A stretch of DNA of 30,453 nt. Source: a virus. The notes beneath the pieces are model-generated. The model did not search any database and was not told the DNA's origin. It saw only the letters and a program-made list of their open reading frames with translations. Of this stretch, positions 9,346 to 26,605 are shown piece by piece (within the stretch, counting starts at the first letter, position 1; each line of letters begins with the position of its first letter). The position numbers and the translations under genes were made by a program. Where the stretch lies: positions 1 through 30,453 of IMG/VR virus record IMGVR_UViG_3300025141_000496. One strand, written 5' to 3'.

Positions 9346-9558
9346 ATGTCTAAAGCAGATTATCAAGAAATCATAACGGAATATAAAGAACAAGTTCGTG
9401 TGCTTAAAGAGCAGGTTAATGAACTGACCGATGCCTGTAAGGCTAAAGATTCAGCTTTAAAAAGAGCACTTCAAAAATTAGAATACACTACAGACGATTT
9501 AGATAAAGCTAACGAAGAGATAAAGGAGAAAAAAGATGAACCTGACGAAAAACTTTAG
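9346..9558 (+). CDS. Small coiled-coil protein of the lysis region
   Basis: A 70-residue, almost wholly charged helix (KEQVRVLKEQVNELTDACKA, then ALQKLEYTTDDLDKANEEI) with one Cys and no membrane segment or signal peptide. The absence of a TM argues against an inner-membrane spanin. It begins 3 nt after the holin-like gene and its 3' end overlaps the endolysin start by 23 nt; the endolysin ribosome-binding site AAAGGAG lies inside it at 9522-9528. Function unknown; a partner of the adjacent membrane or lysis proteins is possible. Confidence 0.6.
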   Translation: MSKADYQEIITEYKEQVRVLKEQVNELTDACKAKDSALKRALQKLEYTTDDLDKANEEIKEKKDEPDEKL

Positions 9559-9994
9559 TTTAAAAGAGTTAACAACCAGCCAAACAGCTGAACGAAAAGG
9601 CATTGATAATACCCCTGGACCCGAGCACCAAGAGAACCTACAATCACTCTGTACGGCCATCCTACAGCCCGTTCGAGACCATTTTGGGAAGGTTGTGACC
9701 ATTTCCAGCGGCTATCGCTCTCCAGAGCTGTGTACAGCCATAGGCTCAAAAATCACGAGTCAACATGCAAAAGGCCAGGCGGCGGACTTCGAAATCTTTG
9801 GAGTATCTAATAAAGCTCTTGCTGATTATATTGATTCGGAACTTCATTACGATCAACTCATTCTCGAGTACTGGAAAGAATCAGATCCAAATTCAGGCTG
9901 GGTGCACTGCTCATTTTCCGAAGGTAACAACAGGAAACAATACTTGAGAGCTTACAAAGAAGATGGTAGCACTAAGTACGAATCTATGGTGTGA
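9536..9994 (+). CDS. Endolysin, peptidase M15 (D-Ala-D-Ala carboxypeptidase-like)
   Basis: A 152-residue soluble protein with the M15 zinc-peptidase pattern. SGYRSPELCTAIG (58-70) is followed by SQHAKGQAADFEI, giving SxHxxGxAxD with His77 and Asp84. The third zinc ligand is His124 in GWVHCSF. Family knowledge: such phage enzymes cleave peptide cross-links in peptidoglycan at lysis. No signal peptide is present, so release should depend on a holin, consistent with the holin-like gene at 9143. The start is fixed by AAAGGAG seven bases upstream. Local base composition is noticeably richer in G+C than its neighbours (about 9560-9780), a possible sign of recent acquisition. Confidence 0.9.
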   Translation: MNLTKNFSLKELTTSQTAERKGIDNTPGPEHQENLQSLCTAILQPVRDHFGKVVTISSGYRSPELCTAIGSKITSQHAKGQAADFEIFGVSNKALADYIDSELHYDQLILEYWKESDPNSGWVHCSFSEGNNRKQYLRAYKEDGSTKYESMV

Positions 9995-10109: not shown

Positions 10110-10517
10110 ATGACTGATCTAATAAACTTAAACAATTTCCTAAACAATGCAATCGGCTTCGAAGATTTCTTCGATAGATTTCACCGTTTGCCTACTATCA
10201 ATGCAGGCTTTCCGCATTACAATATAAAGAAAGCTGGAGAAGATAAATACACTCTTGAAATGGCGTTAGCTGGCTATAAAAAGTCAGATATTAAAGTCAA
10301 TGTTCAAGACGGTGTGTTATCAATTGAAGGAAGTTCTTCTGAAGACAAAGAAGACTTTGTTCATAAAGGCATTGCCAAAAGATCATTCAAACGTCAGCTA
10401 CAATTAGCTGAGTATGTAGAATGCAATGGGGCTAAGTTAGAAGATGGAATGTTAAAAATAAATTTAAAACACAATCCACCAGAAGAAAAACGAGCAAAAG
10501 AAATTCTTATAAAATAA
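10110..10517 (+). CDS. Hsp20/IbpA-type small heat-shock protein
   Basis: A 135-residue alpha-crystallin-domain protein. Recognisable segments are FPHYNIKKAGEDKYTLEMAL (about 34-53), AGYKKSDIKVNV (54-65), GVLSIEG (68-74), GIAKRSFKRQLQLAEYVE (88-105) and GAKLEDGMLKINLKH (107-121). These are the class A IbpA-like pattern. Family knowledge: ATP-independent holdase chaperones; phage copies are frequent in marine phages and are thought to help virion protein folding or stress survival. The strongest ribosome-binding site in the window precedes it, predicting high expression. It forms a separate unit between the lysis genes and the repeat region. Confidence 0.93.
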   Translation: MTDLINLNNFLNNAIGFEDFFDRFHRLPTINAGFPHYNIKKAGEDKYTLEMALAGYKKSDIKVNVQDGVLSIEGSSSEDKEDFVHKGIAKRSFKRQLQLAEYVECNGAKLEDGMLKINLKHNPPEEKRAKEILIK

Positions 10518-10624: not shown

Positions 10625-11131
10625 GTGATCATAGAGGACGAAAGTATATTTAAGGCGAAGGAAAAACAGTATATTGATTCTGTTATTCTAGGCGGAGATA
10701 TTGCTTTTTTCTGGTCTCCTAATCAGGTTAAGAACGATGGAAAACCTTTTCTTTCTCATACTTTAATTCATCGAGACACTCACCAGATTCGTTCACCTCA
10801 CGCTGCTTTTTTTACAGAGCTCGCAACAAAATTTATAAAGAAACATAAACTTAACTTCCGAGTTTTTTTACGAGGAAGTATTAACTTAACTTTTCCTATA
10901 AAAGAAAAAGGAACACCTCATCGAGATCATGATTTTTCTCATCAACAAATCATTATGTATTTAAATAAGAGTAAGGGTGGATCAACCGTTATTCTTTCTG
11001 ACAAACAGAAAATTATAAAAACTATTGAACCAAAACAATTTAAAATGGTTTCCTTTGACGGAAGTTATTTACATTATCAAAACTATCCAAACAAAGGGCG
11101 CCGAGTGGCAGCTGTGATAACCTTTATTTGA
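10625..11131 (+). CDS. 2-oxoglutarate/Fe(II)-dependent oxygenase-like protein
   Basis: A 168-residue protein with the double-stranded beta-helix oxygenase pattern. TPHRDHDFSHQQIIMYLN supplies HxD (His99, Asp101). GGSTVIL (118-124) and FDGSYLHYQNYPNKGRRVAA supply the distal His150 and Arg159/Arg160 for 2-oxoglutarate. Family knowledge: these enzymes hydroxylate proteins, nucleic acids or small molecules, and single-domain versions are common in marine phages with unknown substrates. The GTG start is chosen because the promoter -10 box ends seven bases before it and no ribosome-binding site exists. The gene is bracketed by direct repeats and stands apart from the surrounding operons, as expected for an inserted moron-type cassette. 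Confidence 0.85.
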   Translation: MIIEDESIFKAKEKQYIDSVILGGDIAFFWSPNQVKNDGKPFLSHTLIHRDTHQIRSPHAAFFTELATKFIKKHKLNFRVFLRGSINLTFPIKEKGTPHRDHDFSHQQIIMYLNKSKGGSTVILSDKQKIIKTIEPKQFKMVSFDGSYLHYQNYPNKGRRVAAVITFI

Positions 11132-17872: not shown

Positions 17873-18165
17873 AACAACCTGGTCGAATTGGAACTATTTA
17901 CGAACATGTAGCCATAAACGAATTTTTAAAGAGAGGATTTCTTGTTTTTAAAAATGTAATGCAATCAGGACCGGCTGACATCGTCGTTGTTTCACCGGAT
18001 GGCGAAATTGAATTATTAGATGTTAAAAAAAGATCTATAAGAAAAAGAGATGGATTTCCCGTTCATCGGTCTTTGACTAACATTCAAAAACAATTAAAAA
18101 TTAAATTATATTATGTTGATGATGACAATCCAGGACACTATCACCCACCGAAAGGAATTAAATAA
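17863..18165 (+). CDS. PD-(D/E)XK endonuclease (Holliday-junction resolvase-like fold)
   Basis: A 100-residue protein starting MGLKQPGRIGTIYEHVA. The restriction-endonuclease-like core is visible: Glu14 in the first helix, GPADIVVV with Asp39, and ELLDVKK with Asp53 and Lys55 (DxK). Family knowledge: metal-dependent nucleases that trim or resolve branched DNA. The start at 17863 is preferred over the ATG at 17848 because GGAAGG (17850-17855) stands seven bases before it. The TAA overlaps the polymerase ATG by one base, supporting a joint role in replication or recombination. Confidence 0.8.
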   Translation: MGLKQPGRIGTIYEHVAINEFLKRGFLVFKNVMQSGPADIVVVSPDGEIELLDVKKRSIRKRDGFPVHRSLTNIQKQLKIKLYYVDDDNPGHYHPPKGIK

Positions 18166-20015
18166 TGCAAATACCTCTTTTTAAACCCCAAACAGAATGG
18201 TTACCGCCAGAAAATTTTCCTGACTTATCTGCGTACGATGAAATTTCAATAGACTTAGAAACAAAAGATCCTGATTTAATTAAAATGGGATCAGGTTCAA
18301 TTGTAGGTAGAGGAGACGTAACGGGTATAGCAGTAGCTGTTAAAAATTGGTGTGGCTATTATCCTATTGCTCACGAAGGTGGCGGCAACATGGATCGAAA
18401 AAAAGTTTTGAAATGGGTTCAAGATGTATTAAGTACACCCGCGATAAAAATATTTCATAACGCCATGTATGACGTTTGTTGGCTACGAGCGATCGGCTTA
18501 AGTATTAGCGGTAAAATAGTGGACACGATGATTGCTTCGGCCCTTGTTGATGAAAATCAAATGCGCTATGACTTAAACAACTGCAGTAAAAGATACACTG
18601 GTAAAGGAAAGAATGAAACAGAATTATATGAAGCTGCGAAAAGTTGGGGAGTTGACCCTAAGGCAGAAATGTATAAACTACCTGCCATTTATGTGGGCGC
18701 ATATGCAGAAAAGGATGCTGAAATAACTTTAGCCCTTTGGCAAGAACTAAAAAAAGAAATACATCATCAAGATCTTAGTGCCATCATGAATATGGAAACT
18801 GAATTATTTCCTTGTTTAATTGATATGAAATTTAAAGGGGTGCGTGTTGACGTAGCAGCAGCTCATCAATTAAAAAAAGAATTAGTTACTCAAGAAAAAG
18901 AATCATTGTTAGCTGTAAAAAAAGAAACAGGCATAGATACTCAAATATGGGCGGCACGCTCTATTGCTCAAGTTTTTGATAAACTAAATTTAGAGTATGA
19001 TAGAACTGAAAAAACAAACGCACCTTCTTTTACTAAGAATTTTTTATCTAATCACCCTCACCCCGTTGTAAAACACATTGCTCGGGCTAGAGAAATTAAT
19101 AAATCTCACACGACATTTATTGACACAATCCTTAAACATTCCTACAAAGGTAGAATCCACGCTGATATCAATCAATTGCGTGGAGACAATGGAGGAACGG
19201 TTACCGGAAGATTTTCTTATTCCAATCCAAATTTACAGCAAATACCAGCACGGAACAAGGATCTCGGACCACGGATTAGGTCCTTATTTATCCCTGAGGA
19301 AGGCCATACATGGGGTTGTTTTGACTATAATCAACAAGAGCCTAGGTTGGTAGTGCATTATGCAACGTTACAAAATCTCTATGGCGTGGATGAAGTTTTA
19401 GAAGCTTATCGTGAAGGAGATGCAGATTTTCACAATATTGTTGCTGATATGGCAGAGATACCTAGATCACAAGCCAAGACTATAAACCTGGGTCTGTTCT
19501 ACGGTATGGGTAAAAATAAATTGCAAGCAGAGCTTGGGGTATCCAAAGATAAAGCGGAAGAATTATTTAAAAAATATCATACTAAGGTTCCATTTGTAAA
19601 ACAACTTATGGATAATGTAAGTCAACGGGCTCAAGACTCTGGTAAAATTAGAACGTTACTTGGAAGATTATGTAGGTTTCATTTATGGGAACCTAATTCA
19701 TTTGGTATTCATAAAGCTTTACCACACGAAGAAGCACTCAGGGAACACGGACCAGGGATTAAACGAGCCTATACTTATAAATCTTTAAACAAACTCATAC
19801 AAGGATCAGCAGCAGATATGACTAAAAAAGCTATGGTTGATTTATATAAAGAAGGCATTATTCCCCATATACAAGTTCATGATGAACTAGATATTTCTGT
19901 AGAATCTGATAAACAAGCAAAACAAATAGTAGAAATTATGGAATCTGCGGTTAAACTAGAAGTACCAAATAAAGTAGACTATGAATCTGGTTTTAATTGG
20001 GGTAACATCAAATAG
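18165..20015 (+). CDS. polA: Family A DNA polymerase with 3'-5' exonuclease
   Basis: A 616-residue PolA lacking the 5'-nuclease domain. The proofreading domain shows ISIDLET (Asp30, Glu32), HNAMYDV (Asp103) and YAEKDAE (Asp184). The polymerase domain shows GRFSYSNPNLQQIPARN (349-365), motif A CFDYNQQEPR (Asp387), the O-helix RSQAKTINLGLFYGMG (434-449) and motif C QVHDELD (570-576). The residue matching Phe762 of E. coli Pol I is Leu442. Published virioplankton work links this substitution with slower, more faithful synthesis and often with temperate life, yet no lysogeny gene is seen here. It is the replicative polymerase by context. Confidence 0.96.
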   Translation: MQIPLFKPQTEWLPPENFPDLSAYDEISIDLETKDPDLIKMGSGSIVGRGDVTGIAVAVKNWCGYYPIAHEGGGNMDRKKVLKWVQDVLSTPAIKIFHNAMYDVCWLRAIGLSISGKIVDTMIASALVDENQMRYDLNNCSKRYTGKGKNETELYEAAKSWGVDPKAEMYKLPAIYVGAYAEKDAEITLALWQELKKEIHHQDLSAIMNMETELFPCLIDMKFKGVRVDVAAAHQLKKELVTQEKESLLAVKKETGIDTQIWAARSIAQVFDKLNLEYDRTEKTNAPSFTKNFLSNHPHPVVKHIARAREINKSHTTFIDTILKHSYKGRIHADINQLRGDNGGTVTGRFSYSNPNLQQIPARNKDLGPRIRSLFIPEEGHTWGCFDYNQQEPRLVVHYATLQNLYGVDEVLEAYREGDADFHNIVADMAEIPRSQAKTINLGLFYGMGKNKLQAELGVSKDKAEELFKKYHTKVPFVKQLMDNVSQRAQDSGKIRTLLGRLCRFHLWEPNSFGIHKALPHEEALREHGPGIKRAYTYKSLNKLIQGSAADMTKKAMVDLYKEGIIPHIQVHDELDISVESDKQAKQIVEIMESAVKLEVPNKVDYESGFNWGNIK

Positions 20016-20139: not shown

Positions 20140-20793
20140 ATGGCATATTTAAACGCGAATATACCTGTGATGTATGCACAGATCAGGAGGGAATACCTTT
20201 ATGATCTCAAAGCACATCACGGCGAAGTGGAAGACTGCATTCTTTTTGGGGTGGCATCGATTACAGGGCGTCCTATACTCTTTCATGCAATTATGGAAAA
20301 TGGTGCTATCTTCTATCGGTTGCCAATTAGTGCGTTTATGCAAAGAGGATTTAAGCCAGAAGAAGTTCCTCGGACTCGGCTGGACCAGCTGGAGTTGTGG
20401 AATTGCTTTAGTTATTATCCTGCTATTACTAATTACGATATTTTAGACGGCCAATCAGGCAAATATATAGATAAAAATAAGATCTGGCATACCGGATCCT
20501 ATCTTTTCACAGTTGACTGGGCTCATCCAGAGAGTAATATTGTTGACACAGATCATTCAGAAATTCCGCACGAACATAAGTGCGCTCATATACTTGCCTT
20601 GGATGATGGCAACTATGCGGCTCAGCCAAACAACAGATTAATATGGAGTATTCCTTCATTCACAGTCAGGAACGAAGTTCCTAAAGACTGGAAGGTACAA
20701 ACAAGTGAGTGGAATGTAGAAGATAGTAGTAAGTGGAGGACCGAAGACACTGACAACTTTTTTTACGAAATTGAGGAGAAAAAACATGATTAA
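20140..20793 (+). CDS. Conserved phage protein of unknown function (217 aa)
   Basis: A 217-residue soluble protein with many Trp, Tyr and His residues: MAYLNANIPVMYAQIRREYL at the N-terminus, EDCILFGVASITGRPILFHA, ENGAIFYRLPISAF, LELWNCFSYYP, YLFTVDWAH, HKCAHILALDDGNYAAQPNN and SKWRTEDTDNFFYE. This set of motifs recurs, from memory, in an uncharacterised family of cyanophage and marine-phage proteins downstream of polymerase. No catalytic signature is assigned. An AAGGA at 20124-20128 is 11 bases upstream, rather far. Confidence 0.8.
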   Translation: MAYLNANIPVMYAQIRREYLYDLKAHHGEVEDCILFGVASITGRPILFHAIMENGAIFYRLPISAFMQRGFKPEEVPRTRLDQLELWNCFSYYPAITNYDILDGQSGKYIDKNKIWHTGSYLFTVDWAHPESNIVDTDHSEIPHEHKCAHILALDDGNYAAQPNNRLIWSIPSFTVRNEVPKDWKVQTSEWNVEDSSKWRTEDTDNFFYEIEEKKHD

Positions 20794-20842
20794 AAAATAT
20801 TGGAATCTTTTTAAAAAATGGATAATTAAACAATATGAATAA
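20786..20842 (+). CDS. 18-residue basic amphipathic peptide
   Basis: An ORF of 18 codons, MIKKYWNLFKKWIIKQYE, cationic and aromatic, overlapping the previous gene by 8 nt and the next by 8 nt. AGGAG (20773-20777) precedes the ATG by eight bases. The peptide could form an amphipathic membrane-active helix, or the ORF could act mainly as a translational leader for the cysteine-rich gene, which lacks its own ribosome-binding site. Confidence 0.45.
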   Translation: MIKKYWNLFKKWIIKQYE

Positions 20843-20981
20843 ATGTAAAGACTGCTTTTGTAATTGTCATTGTAATGTCAAAGGACATTCCGATAGTAAC
20901 GGAGTATGTCCTTGTGAAAAATGTAATTGTAACCCCCAGGGAGCTACAGTAAATAACGATGAGTGTCTCGCATGCCAATAG
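20835..20981 (+). CDS. Metallothionein-like cysteine-rich microprotein (48 aa, 11 Cys)
   Basis: A 48-codon ORF with 11 cysteines (4, 7, 9, 11, 13, 25, 27, 30, 32, 44, 47) and His12 and His18. The spacing is CxxCxCxCxC, then CxCxxCxC, then CxxC, the dense CxC/CxxC arrangement of metallothioneins, with no aromatic residue except Phe8. Family knowledge: such peptides bind clusters of Zn, Cu or Cd by thiolates. It has no signal peptide, so it should act in the cytoplasm. Translation seems coupled to the 18-residue ORF, whose TAA lies six bases inside its start. It is followed by a second small protein with two CC pairs. Homology to a named family could not be tested. Confidence 0.7.
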   Translation: MNKCKDCFCNCHCNVKGHSDSNGVCPCEKCNCNPQGATVNNDECLACQ

Positions 20982-21121
20982 ACGAAACAAAATGCTGCAA
21001 TACGCATACCAAAGAAAAAGAAAAATTAGGTACATGTTGTCGGCTAAACGAAGAAAAAGAACGCGCCGAACAACAGACATATGAATACACAATAAAAACG
21101 AAGGGTAAACCCAATGAATGA
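20972..21121 (+). CDS. Small protein with paired CC motifs (49 aa)
   Basis: A 49-codon ORF whose ATG overlaps the end of the cysteine-rich gene by 10 nt. It carries two vicinal cysteine pairs (Cys8-Cys9 and Cys22-Cys23), His12 and a charged C-terminal half (NEEKERAEQQTYEYTIKTKG). Two CC pairs and a nearby His could make one metal site, so it may work with the metallothionein-like protein. It overlaps the next ATG by 8 nt. No family recognised. Confidence 0.55.
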   Translation: MPIDETKCCNTHTKEKEKLGTCCRLNEEKERAEQQTYEYTIKTKGKPNE

Positions 21122-21311
21122 TAAATTAATAACGGCACTACTCGCTATTGTATTAGCGCTCGGAGGATGGTCACTACAAAGATCATTTTCCTTATCACAA
21201 GACATGGTTGTGATTAAAATGAAAATTGAGGTAATACAAAATGAGATATCGAACTTTAAAAATTTTAAGGGCAAGAAGCCTCGCAAGAAAAAGAAGAAAC
21301 AGAACAATTAA
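21114..21311 (+). CDS. Single-TM small protein with lysine-rich tail
   Basis: A 65-residue protein: an N-terminal TM helix (LITALLAIVLALGGW, residues 5-19), a short coiled coil (MVVIKMKIEVIQNEISNFKN) and a tail of consecutive Lys/Arg residues. It is first in a string of overlapping genes with the same TM-plus-coil design (also 21794 and 22243). The last 71 bases are shared with the upstream-extended form of the next ORF. Membrane location is likely; role unknown. Confidence 0.65.
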   Translation: MNDKLITALLAIVLALGGWSLQRSFSLSQDMVVIKMKIEVIQNEISNFKNFKGKKPRKKKKKQNN

Positions 21312-26293: not shown

Positions 26294-26605
26294 ATGAAAA
26301 AAGAAAATTACAAACCCCTACCTTATCAATTAATTATTGCCGATTCCGCGATTAGCGGTCAAGGTGTGTTTACGACACGAAAATTAGTACAAGGAACCTT
26401 ACTTGGAATTTCTCATTATCGAATTGATGGAGAGTATATTCGAACTCCTTTAGGAGGATTTATTAATCATTCGGAAACCCCTAATTGTCATCGCTCTCAA
26501 GCGCGTATTCGCGAAGGTTTTGATAAATGGTATATTACCGTCGTCAAAGATATTAACAAAGGGGAAGAACTTACATTAAAATATATTTTATATGACCCAA
26601 AATAA
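26294..26605 (+). CDS. Minimal SET-domain protein (putative lysine methyltransferase)
   Basis: A 103-residue single SET domain: SAISGQGVFTTRKLVQGTLL (18-37) with the GxG SAM-binding loop, GGFINHSETPNC (54-65) with the NHS...PNC signature, and DINKGEELTLKYILYD (86-101) with the catalytic-type Tyr97. It has no pre- or post-SET cysteines and is shorter than eukaryotic SET (about 130). Family knowledge: SET enzymes methylate protein lysines; viral single-domain examples exist. Targets in a bacterium are unknown. It is preceded closely by the UUCG hairpin and lacks an evident ribosome-binding site. Confidence 0.85.
   Translation: MKKENYKPLPYQLIIADSAISGQGVFTTRKLVQGTLLGISHYRIDGEYIRTPLGGFINHSETPNCHRSQARIREGFDKWYITVVKDINKGEELTLKYILYDPK

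Follow-up and report, generated by a model that had tools for sequence, protein, structure and literature searches.

The plus strand of a 30,453-base virus record (here called the window, the whole stretch of DNA that was analysed) carries at positions 20835-20981 a gene for a 48-residue protein, MNKCKDCFCNCHCNVKGHSDSNGVCPCEKCNCNPQGATVNNDECLACQ, with 11 cysteines and two conserved histidines. It is followed at 20972-21121 (+) by a gene for a 49-residue partner protein, MPIDETKCCNTHTKEKEKLGTCCRLNEEKERAEQQTYEYTIKTKGKPNE, whose copy in the window has two CC pairs. The first is a real gene under purifying selection and the two make up a real and coupled gene pair. Based on our data we hold it probable, with moderate confidence, that 20835-20981 encodes a cytoplasmic metal-thiolate protein acting as a metallothionein-like Zn(II) buffer, with the product of 20972-21121 as its dedicated partner.

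The 48-residue protein reads C-x2-C-x-C-x-C-H-C-x4-H-S-D-x2-G-x-C-x-C-x2-C-x-C-x11-C-x2-C. Cysteine accounts for 23% of its residues (the mean across the ORFs of the window is 1.7%), it has one phenylalanine and neither tryptophan nor tyrosine, and it is mildly acidic and poor in hydrophobic residues. The preliminary description of this region had pointed to three overlapping ORFs of 18, 48 and 49 residues at 20786-21121 and had considered the cysteine-rich one unlikely to arise by chance; the coordinates, the 11 cysteines and the overlaps of 8 and 10 nt are correct, and no ORF with at least 11 cysteines at a frequency of at least 20% appeared when the window was simulated 200 times with a first-order Markov model. 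Relatives were found in IMG/VR, 90 of them in one scan and in at least 305 stretches by an alignment scan, and among the matches listed all full-length copies of the 48-residue form keep all 11 cysteines. The median pairwise dN/dS (NG86) of 65 distinct genes is 0.11. A chance frame is ruled out by the simulations, the low dN/dS and the retained cysteines. The same description had named low dN/dS with conserved cysteine spacing as a check, and stop codons or cysteine loss in relatives as grounds for refutation; the gene passed both, cysteines being kept or swapped for histidine at internal positions, the one exception being L065, a frameshifted copy that lies where its contig stops.

The pattern of substitution is informative as to what the cysteines do. 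The 114 distinct proteins of the family have 8-11 cysteines each, the short forms carrying fewer, and seven cysteine positions are invariant, most of which were demanded by the motif filter itself. C9 and C32 were left unconstrained by the filter used to gather these proteins; C9 is cysteine in 108 and histidine in 6, C32 is cysteine in 102 and histidine in 12, and no other residue occurs at either position. Histidine is thus the replacement in 18 of 18 cases, which come from related sequences and may represent as few as three events. Histidine lies two base changes away from cysteine; a single change would give Ser, Arg, Gly, Tyr, Phe or Trp. As only histidine replaces cysteine despite the two-base cost, the exchange argues for metal coordination and would fit metal ligands rather than disulfides or chance. 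C44 and C47 are cysteine in 110 of the 114 proteins and are retained by almost every long copy, and H12, H18, D20 and G23 are near-invariant alongside the cysteines. Duplications of the gene were also seen, as short and long proteins in tandem (L009/L090) and, with the partner included, as two complete pairs (L131).

In the window the partner gene starts within the final codons of the metallothionein-like gene, with an overlap of 10 nt. Most relatives of the cysteine-rich protein come with the partner. Proceeding from the cysteine-rich protein, a partner could be recognised at 133 loci, and in every one it starts exactly 10 nt before the stop; these loci are partly redundant and correspond to 74 distinct partner proteins. 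A search seeded with the partner, independent of the cysteine-rich protein, retrieved 218 IMG/VR stretches, and in 78 of the 80 partner-centred loci examined the cysteine-rich gene lies directly upstream, overlapping by 10 nt (71 loci) or 4 nt (7 loci). Of the remaining two, L217 is truncated where its contig stops; only L252 truly departs from the rule, in that the partner occurs there without the cysteine-rich protein. C9, H12, G20, C22 and C23 of the partner are invariant, giving the ligand set C-x2-H-x9-C-C; M1 and I3 are invariant too, though their conservation is enforced by the overlap with the stop of the upstream gene. The idea of a partner with CC pairs therefore stood as regards a real and coupled gene, and had to be revised as regards two vicinal pairs, since the first pair is CC in 62 and TC in 71 of the 133 loci, its first cysteine being threonine in about half. 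The partner is dispensable in HTVC103P-type phages and autographiviruses because it is missing from their copies of the cysteine-rich gene; IMG/VR contigs are fragments, so that the absence of a gene from any one of them counts weakly.

A third ORF of 18 codons precedes the pair at 20786-20842 (+) and encodes a Lys/Trp-rich amphipathic peptide, MIKKYWNLFKKWIIKQYE. A GAGGAG stands ahead of it within the end of the PurM-like gene, which overlaps this ORF by 8 nt, and the ORF in turn overlaps the 48-codon gene by 8 nt. A short ORF in this place, mostly Trp/Lys-rich (for example MIKKWWKKFLTWLLEDDKV and MIKKLWKIICWPWTKFVDWLAKGLPSKND), was present in 31 of 99 distinct loci; in 41 there was none, and there the PurM-like gene overlaps the cysteine-rich gene directly. 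The peptide is thus a recurrent but optional member, and because it is only optional the module is a pair and not a trio; what the proposal of a trio retained is the pair as a unit, while the trio itself was dropped. Composition alone suggests a possible membrane role for the peptide. In L020/L096, L152 and L158 it is lengthened by a C-x2-H...C-x2-C motif; in L152, L158 and L096 the fusion of this motif to the Trp/Lys amphipathic helix gives a ligand set resembling that of the partner.

The family A DNA polymerase gene of the window (18165-20015, +) places the phage near HTVC023P-type pelagiphages, its product being 64% identical to that of the uncultivated pelagiphage 023Pt_psg01, 61% to that of HTVC027P and 55% to that of HTVC023P. 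A PurM-like gene follows at 20140-20793 (+; phrog_3704, E 7e-72) and, beyond the pair, a gene for a small membrane/coiled-coil protein (21114-21311, +; family F4, a variable neighbour in relatives) overlaps the end of the partner gene by 8 nt; both are context and lie outside the module, and every junction between the PurM-like gene, which ends at 20793, and the membrane-protein gene, which starts at 21114, is an overlap of 8-10 nt. Annotations of the phrog_3704 gene in cyanophages and pelagiphages vary between two names: PHROGs and part of the RefSeq phage records have ferredoxin, other records have PurM. Both labels look doubtful, as a Pfam scan of the window's protein (20140-20793) gave no family at E 1. 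The whole region has a close relative on contig L182 of the Pelagibacteraceae genome RIS_SAG_32, which shares polA, the PurM-like gene, the cysteine-rich protein, the partner and the same membrane genes with the window. Since this contig lies in a Pelagibacteraceae genome and cultured relatives infect SAR11 strains, we infer that the host of the phage is a SAR11 bacterium. Elsewhere the window encodes a small SET-domain protein (26294-26605, +; PF00856, E 1e-10) with a counterpart at L182:11043-11345 and a family of similar sequence (F15) beside polA in some relatives, and peptidase M15 (zinc endolysin type), HSP20 and 2OG-Fe(II) oxygenase-like genes at 9536-9994, 10110-10517 and 10625-11131. 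In L011 and L012 the pair is followed on its 3' side by two families (F11 and F26) of long, secreted proteins of low complexity, rich in Ser/Thr and Glu.

In window-type phages the cysteine-rich gene thus lies after polA and the PurM-like gene, near replication genes. A tblastn search of 50,697 phage records gave matches confined to pelagiphage-type records (Chosvirus KM23C739, Gjalp, Eyrgjafa and HTVC041P); the gene is unannotated in the KM23C739 and HTVC041P records, the former from 3010 m depth. HTVC041P, Gjalp and Eyrgjafa are cultured phages. In the autographiviruses (Fussvirus, Stopavirus, Chosvirus) it is found between scaffold/HNH genes and the capsid gene, and in a further set of contigs (L056-L080) it stands without the partner downstream of families F5-F6, the 32-kb contig of L068 having a polymerase 80% identical to that of HTVC103P/HTVC104P. 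Three unrelated pelagiphage lineages (HTVC023P-type, HTVC103P-type and Autographiviridae) therefore bear the gene at three genome positions. It was not found in the cultured relatives HTVC027P and HTVC023P or in 023Pt_psg01, and is accordingly not essential to the HTVC023P phage type. SAR11 bacteria are among the commonest in the ocean. The gene was matched in 1 of 397 SAR11-order genomes, a group defined via the genome holding L182, and that one match is the phage contig of a single-cell genome; the classical metallothionein PF02069 was found in none of 197 SAR11-order genomes, the positive control Synechococcus elongatus being matched. Derivation from the host was rejected for the lack of a homologue on the chromosomes of the SAR11-order genomes examined and, as far as tested, the family has no cellular homologue or source.

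Searches with the cysteine-rich protein against Pfam, NCBIfam, PHROGs and PDB sequences gave no match. Neither the window protein nor 12 diverse members matched PF02069 in Pfam scans even at E 10, and hhalign against a 7-sequence SmtA/BmtA alignment returned a probability of 2%. The best local match to SmtA/BmtA covers 9 columns (CPCEKCNCN vs CACEPCLCN) and is not significant, a second match comes in permuted order, and the ligand order of PF02069 (CxCxxCxC ... CxxxC ... GH ... C(x)HxxCxC) is not that of the phage protein. Membership in the SmtA/BmtA family is ruled out by these results. No ferredoxin or other Fe-S family was matched in Pfam, NCBIfam or PHROGs, and the cysteine spacing does not fit CxxCxxC..C; the best hit in PHROGs v4 (E 0.022, for one of the 12 members, to a family of unknown function) does not amount to membership, and a Pfam GASA match (E 0.11, below the cut-off) was rejected as noise from cysteine composition. 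AlphaFold gave no apo fold (pLDDT 48), a model too poor for fold search or structural inference. A slightly acidic character, few hydrophobic residues and no apo fold are usual for metallothioneins. The protein is small, has cysteine-rich CxC/CxxC arrays and few aromatic or hydrophobic residues, and shows conserved ligand positions with ligand-conserving exchange (His in 18/18 at C9/C32). By the tests run it lies outside the bacterial metallothionein family and yet is metallothionein-like in build, in the broad sense of small proteins that hold metals in clusters via Cys and His (PMC10612145). The initial designation as metallothionein-like thus survives for ligand content, Cys-to-His exchange and phage origin, and fails for the family profile. 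A targeted search of the open-access literature returned no relevant paper on phage or virus metallothioneins or on metallothionein and SAR11, and within that literature we know of no earlier report of this pelagiphage family.

Bacteria are known to keep a pool of zinc in their ribosomal proteins. In the model we propose, the 11 cysteines and two conserved histidines would together enclose several ions of d10 metals; three to four Zn(II) is the likeliest load, by analogy to SmtA, in which 9 cysteines hold about 4 Zn (PMC10612145). Zinc is favoured because His ligands favour Zn, and such ligands are common among the bacterial metallothioneins that bind zinc tightly (PMC10612145). During infection the protein would act as a buffer or bank for zinc, such as that freed when ribosomes or other host zinc proteins are dismantled, and may either hold this zinc ready for the zinc proteins of phage and host or withhold it from them; a marine Synechococcus banks zinc with a metallothionein (PMC9337993). 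The suggestion in the preliminary description that the module supplies zinc to zinc-ribbon proteins nearby drew no specific support. The partner would be a one-site protein (C-x2-H...C-C) produced by coupled translation, and probably serves for docking or exchange, taking metal from the cluster protein or handing it over. During infection by pelagiphage HTVC027P cells are deprived of ribosomes (PMC11066056), and host zur and irr transcripts rise, which the authors read as iron demand (PMC12753301); HTVC027P, the source of both data sets, is without the cysteine-rich gene, and those data are context only. We infer metal binding, zinc over copper or cadmium, the stoichiometry, buffering, the role of the partner and the link to ribosomal zinc, and the model of a zinc-capturing buffer is coherent but unproven.

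The same ligand chemistry would also fit a protein that strips zinc from host RNA polymerase, ribosome or protease with the partner as a shuttle, a takeover factor and not a buffer. That the gene is phage-only in SAR11 and near replication genes in the window type is consistent with such a role, which we nevertheless consider quite unlikely, for in autographiviruses it sits among late structural genes, an improbable site for an early takeover factor. This position beside capsid genes in one lineage, together with the smaller number of cysteines in the short forms and a core (CHC-x4-H-S-D-x2-G-x-C-x-C-x2-C-x-C) with the invariant non-ligand residues D20 and G23, could point instead to zinc in a purely structural role: the protein would be a zinc-finger-like adaptor, or an accessory of virion assembly, with several zinc ions that hold its fold and with the partner bound to it. 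We regard this as unlikely: 13 of the 48 residues are potential ligands and few are hydrophobic, and one or two structural sites would not need C9, C44 and C47, which hardly any long copy has lost.

The choice of metal bears on a further alternative. CxC/CxxC arrays and CC suit Cu(I), as in copper thioneins, and those of the phage pair would suit it as well, so the module might detoxify Cu(I) or toxic metals (Cd, Hg) and protect the infected cell in particular waters. The conserved histidines and the Cys-to-His exchange, however, point to divalent metals, and a gene that turns up in many marine samples, and in deep water too (Chosvirus, 3010 m), does not suggest local pollution; we consider this reading very improbable.

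Pelagiphages are among the most abundant marine viruses, and their accessory genes mostly resemble borrowed host genes. The present gene has no cellular source that we could find, and the hosts it enters yielded no metallothionein in our searches. With a pair of this kind one could test directly whether phages control the trace-metal pools of their hosts; it bears on ocean zinc cycling and offers, as a module of cluster protein and partner, a means of studying metal hand-off between minimal proteins. A tentative thought, which we ourselves find doubtful, is that SAR11 phages evolved a metallothionein system of their own, unrelated to cellular ones, in which a cluster protein and an exchange partner translated by overlap re-route ribosome zinc.

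The pair can be compared with several known systems. Like the auxiliary metabolic genes of HTVC023P-type phages (PMC9599517), it is an accessory near polA and purM; the main text of that study makes no mention of metallothionein, zinc or cysteine, and the gene described here is, as far as tested, not cellular in origin. HTVC027P gp12, of small zinc-ribbon type, shares the slot after the PurM-like gene, a Cys/His-rich sequence and an amphipathic WWKK tail, but has only 5 cysteines (CxxCGH...CxxCxC), gives zinc-ribbon matches below the cut-off and is unmatched by the family profile. The gene lies at L086:7097-7255; the tail of its product reads WWKKIISWLT, and there is a weak match to the restriction-alleviation protein Lar (E 0.003, below the cut-off). 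A metallothionein-like gene also occurs in the record of Microcystis phage MaAM05 (MW495066). Unlike the pelagiphage family, for which no cellular homologue was found, that gene is a classical SmtA-like copy, 44% identical to SmtA, and is for this reason probably host-derived. The gene (L187, MW495066.1 111775-111996) is annotated as hypothetical, and the source field of the record gives hospital wastewater, which merits checking. The bacterial proteins SmtA/BmtA (PF02069, Metallothio_Pro; PDB 1jjd, 6gv6) are comparable in size, in the use of Cys and His ligands and in the C-x-C-x2-C-x-C motif, whereas the pelagiphage protein shows no significant similarity to them, differs in the order of its cysteine motifs, is carried by phages and comes with a partner gene.
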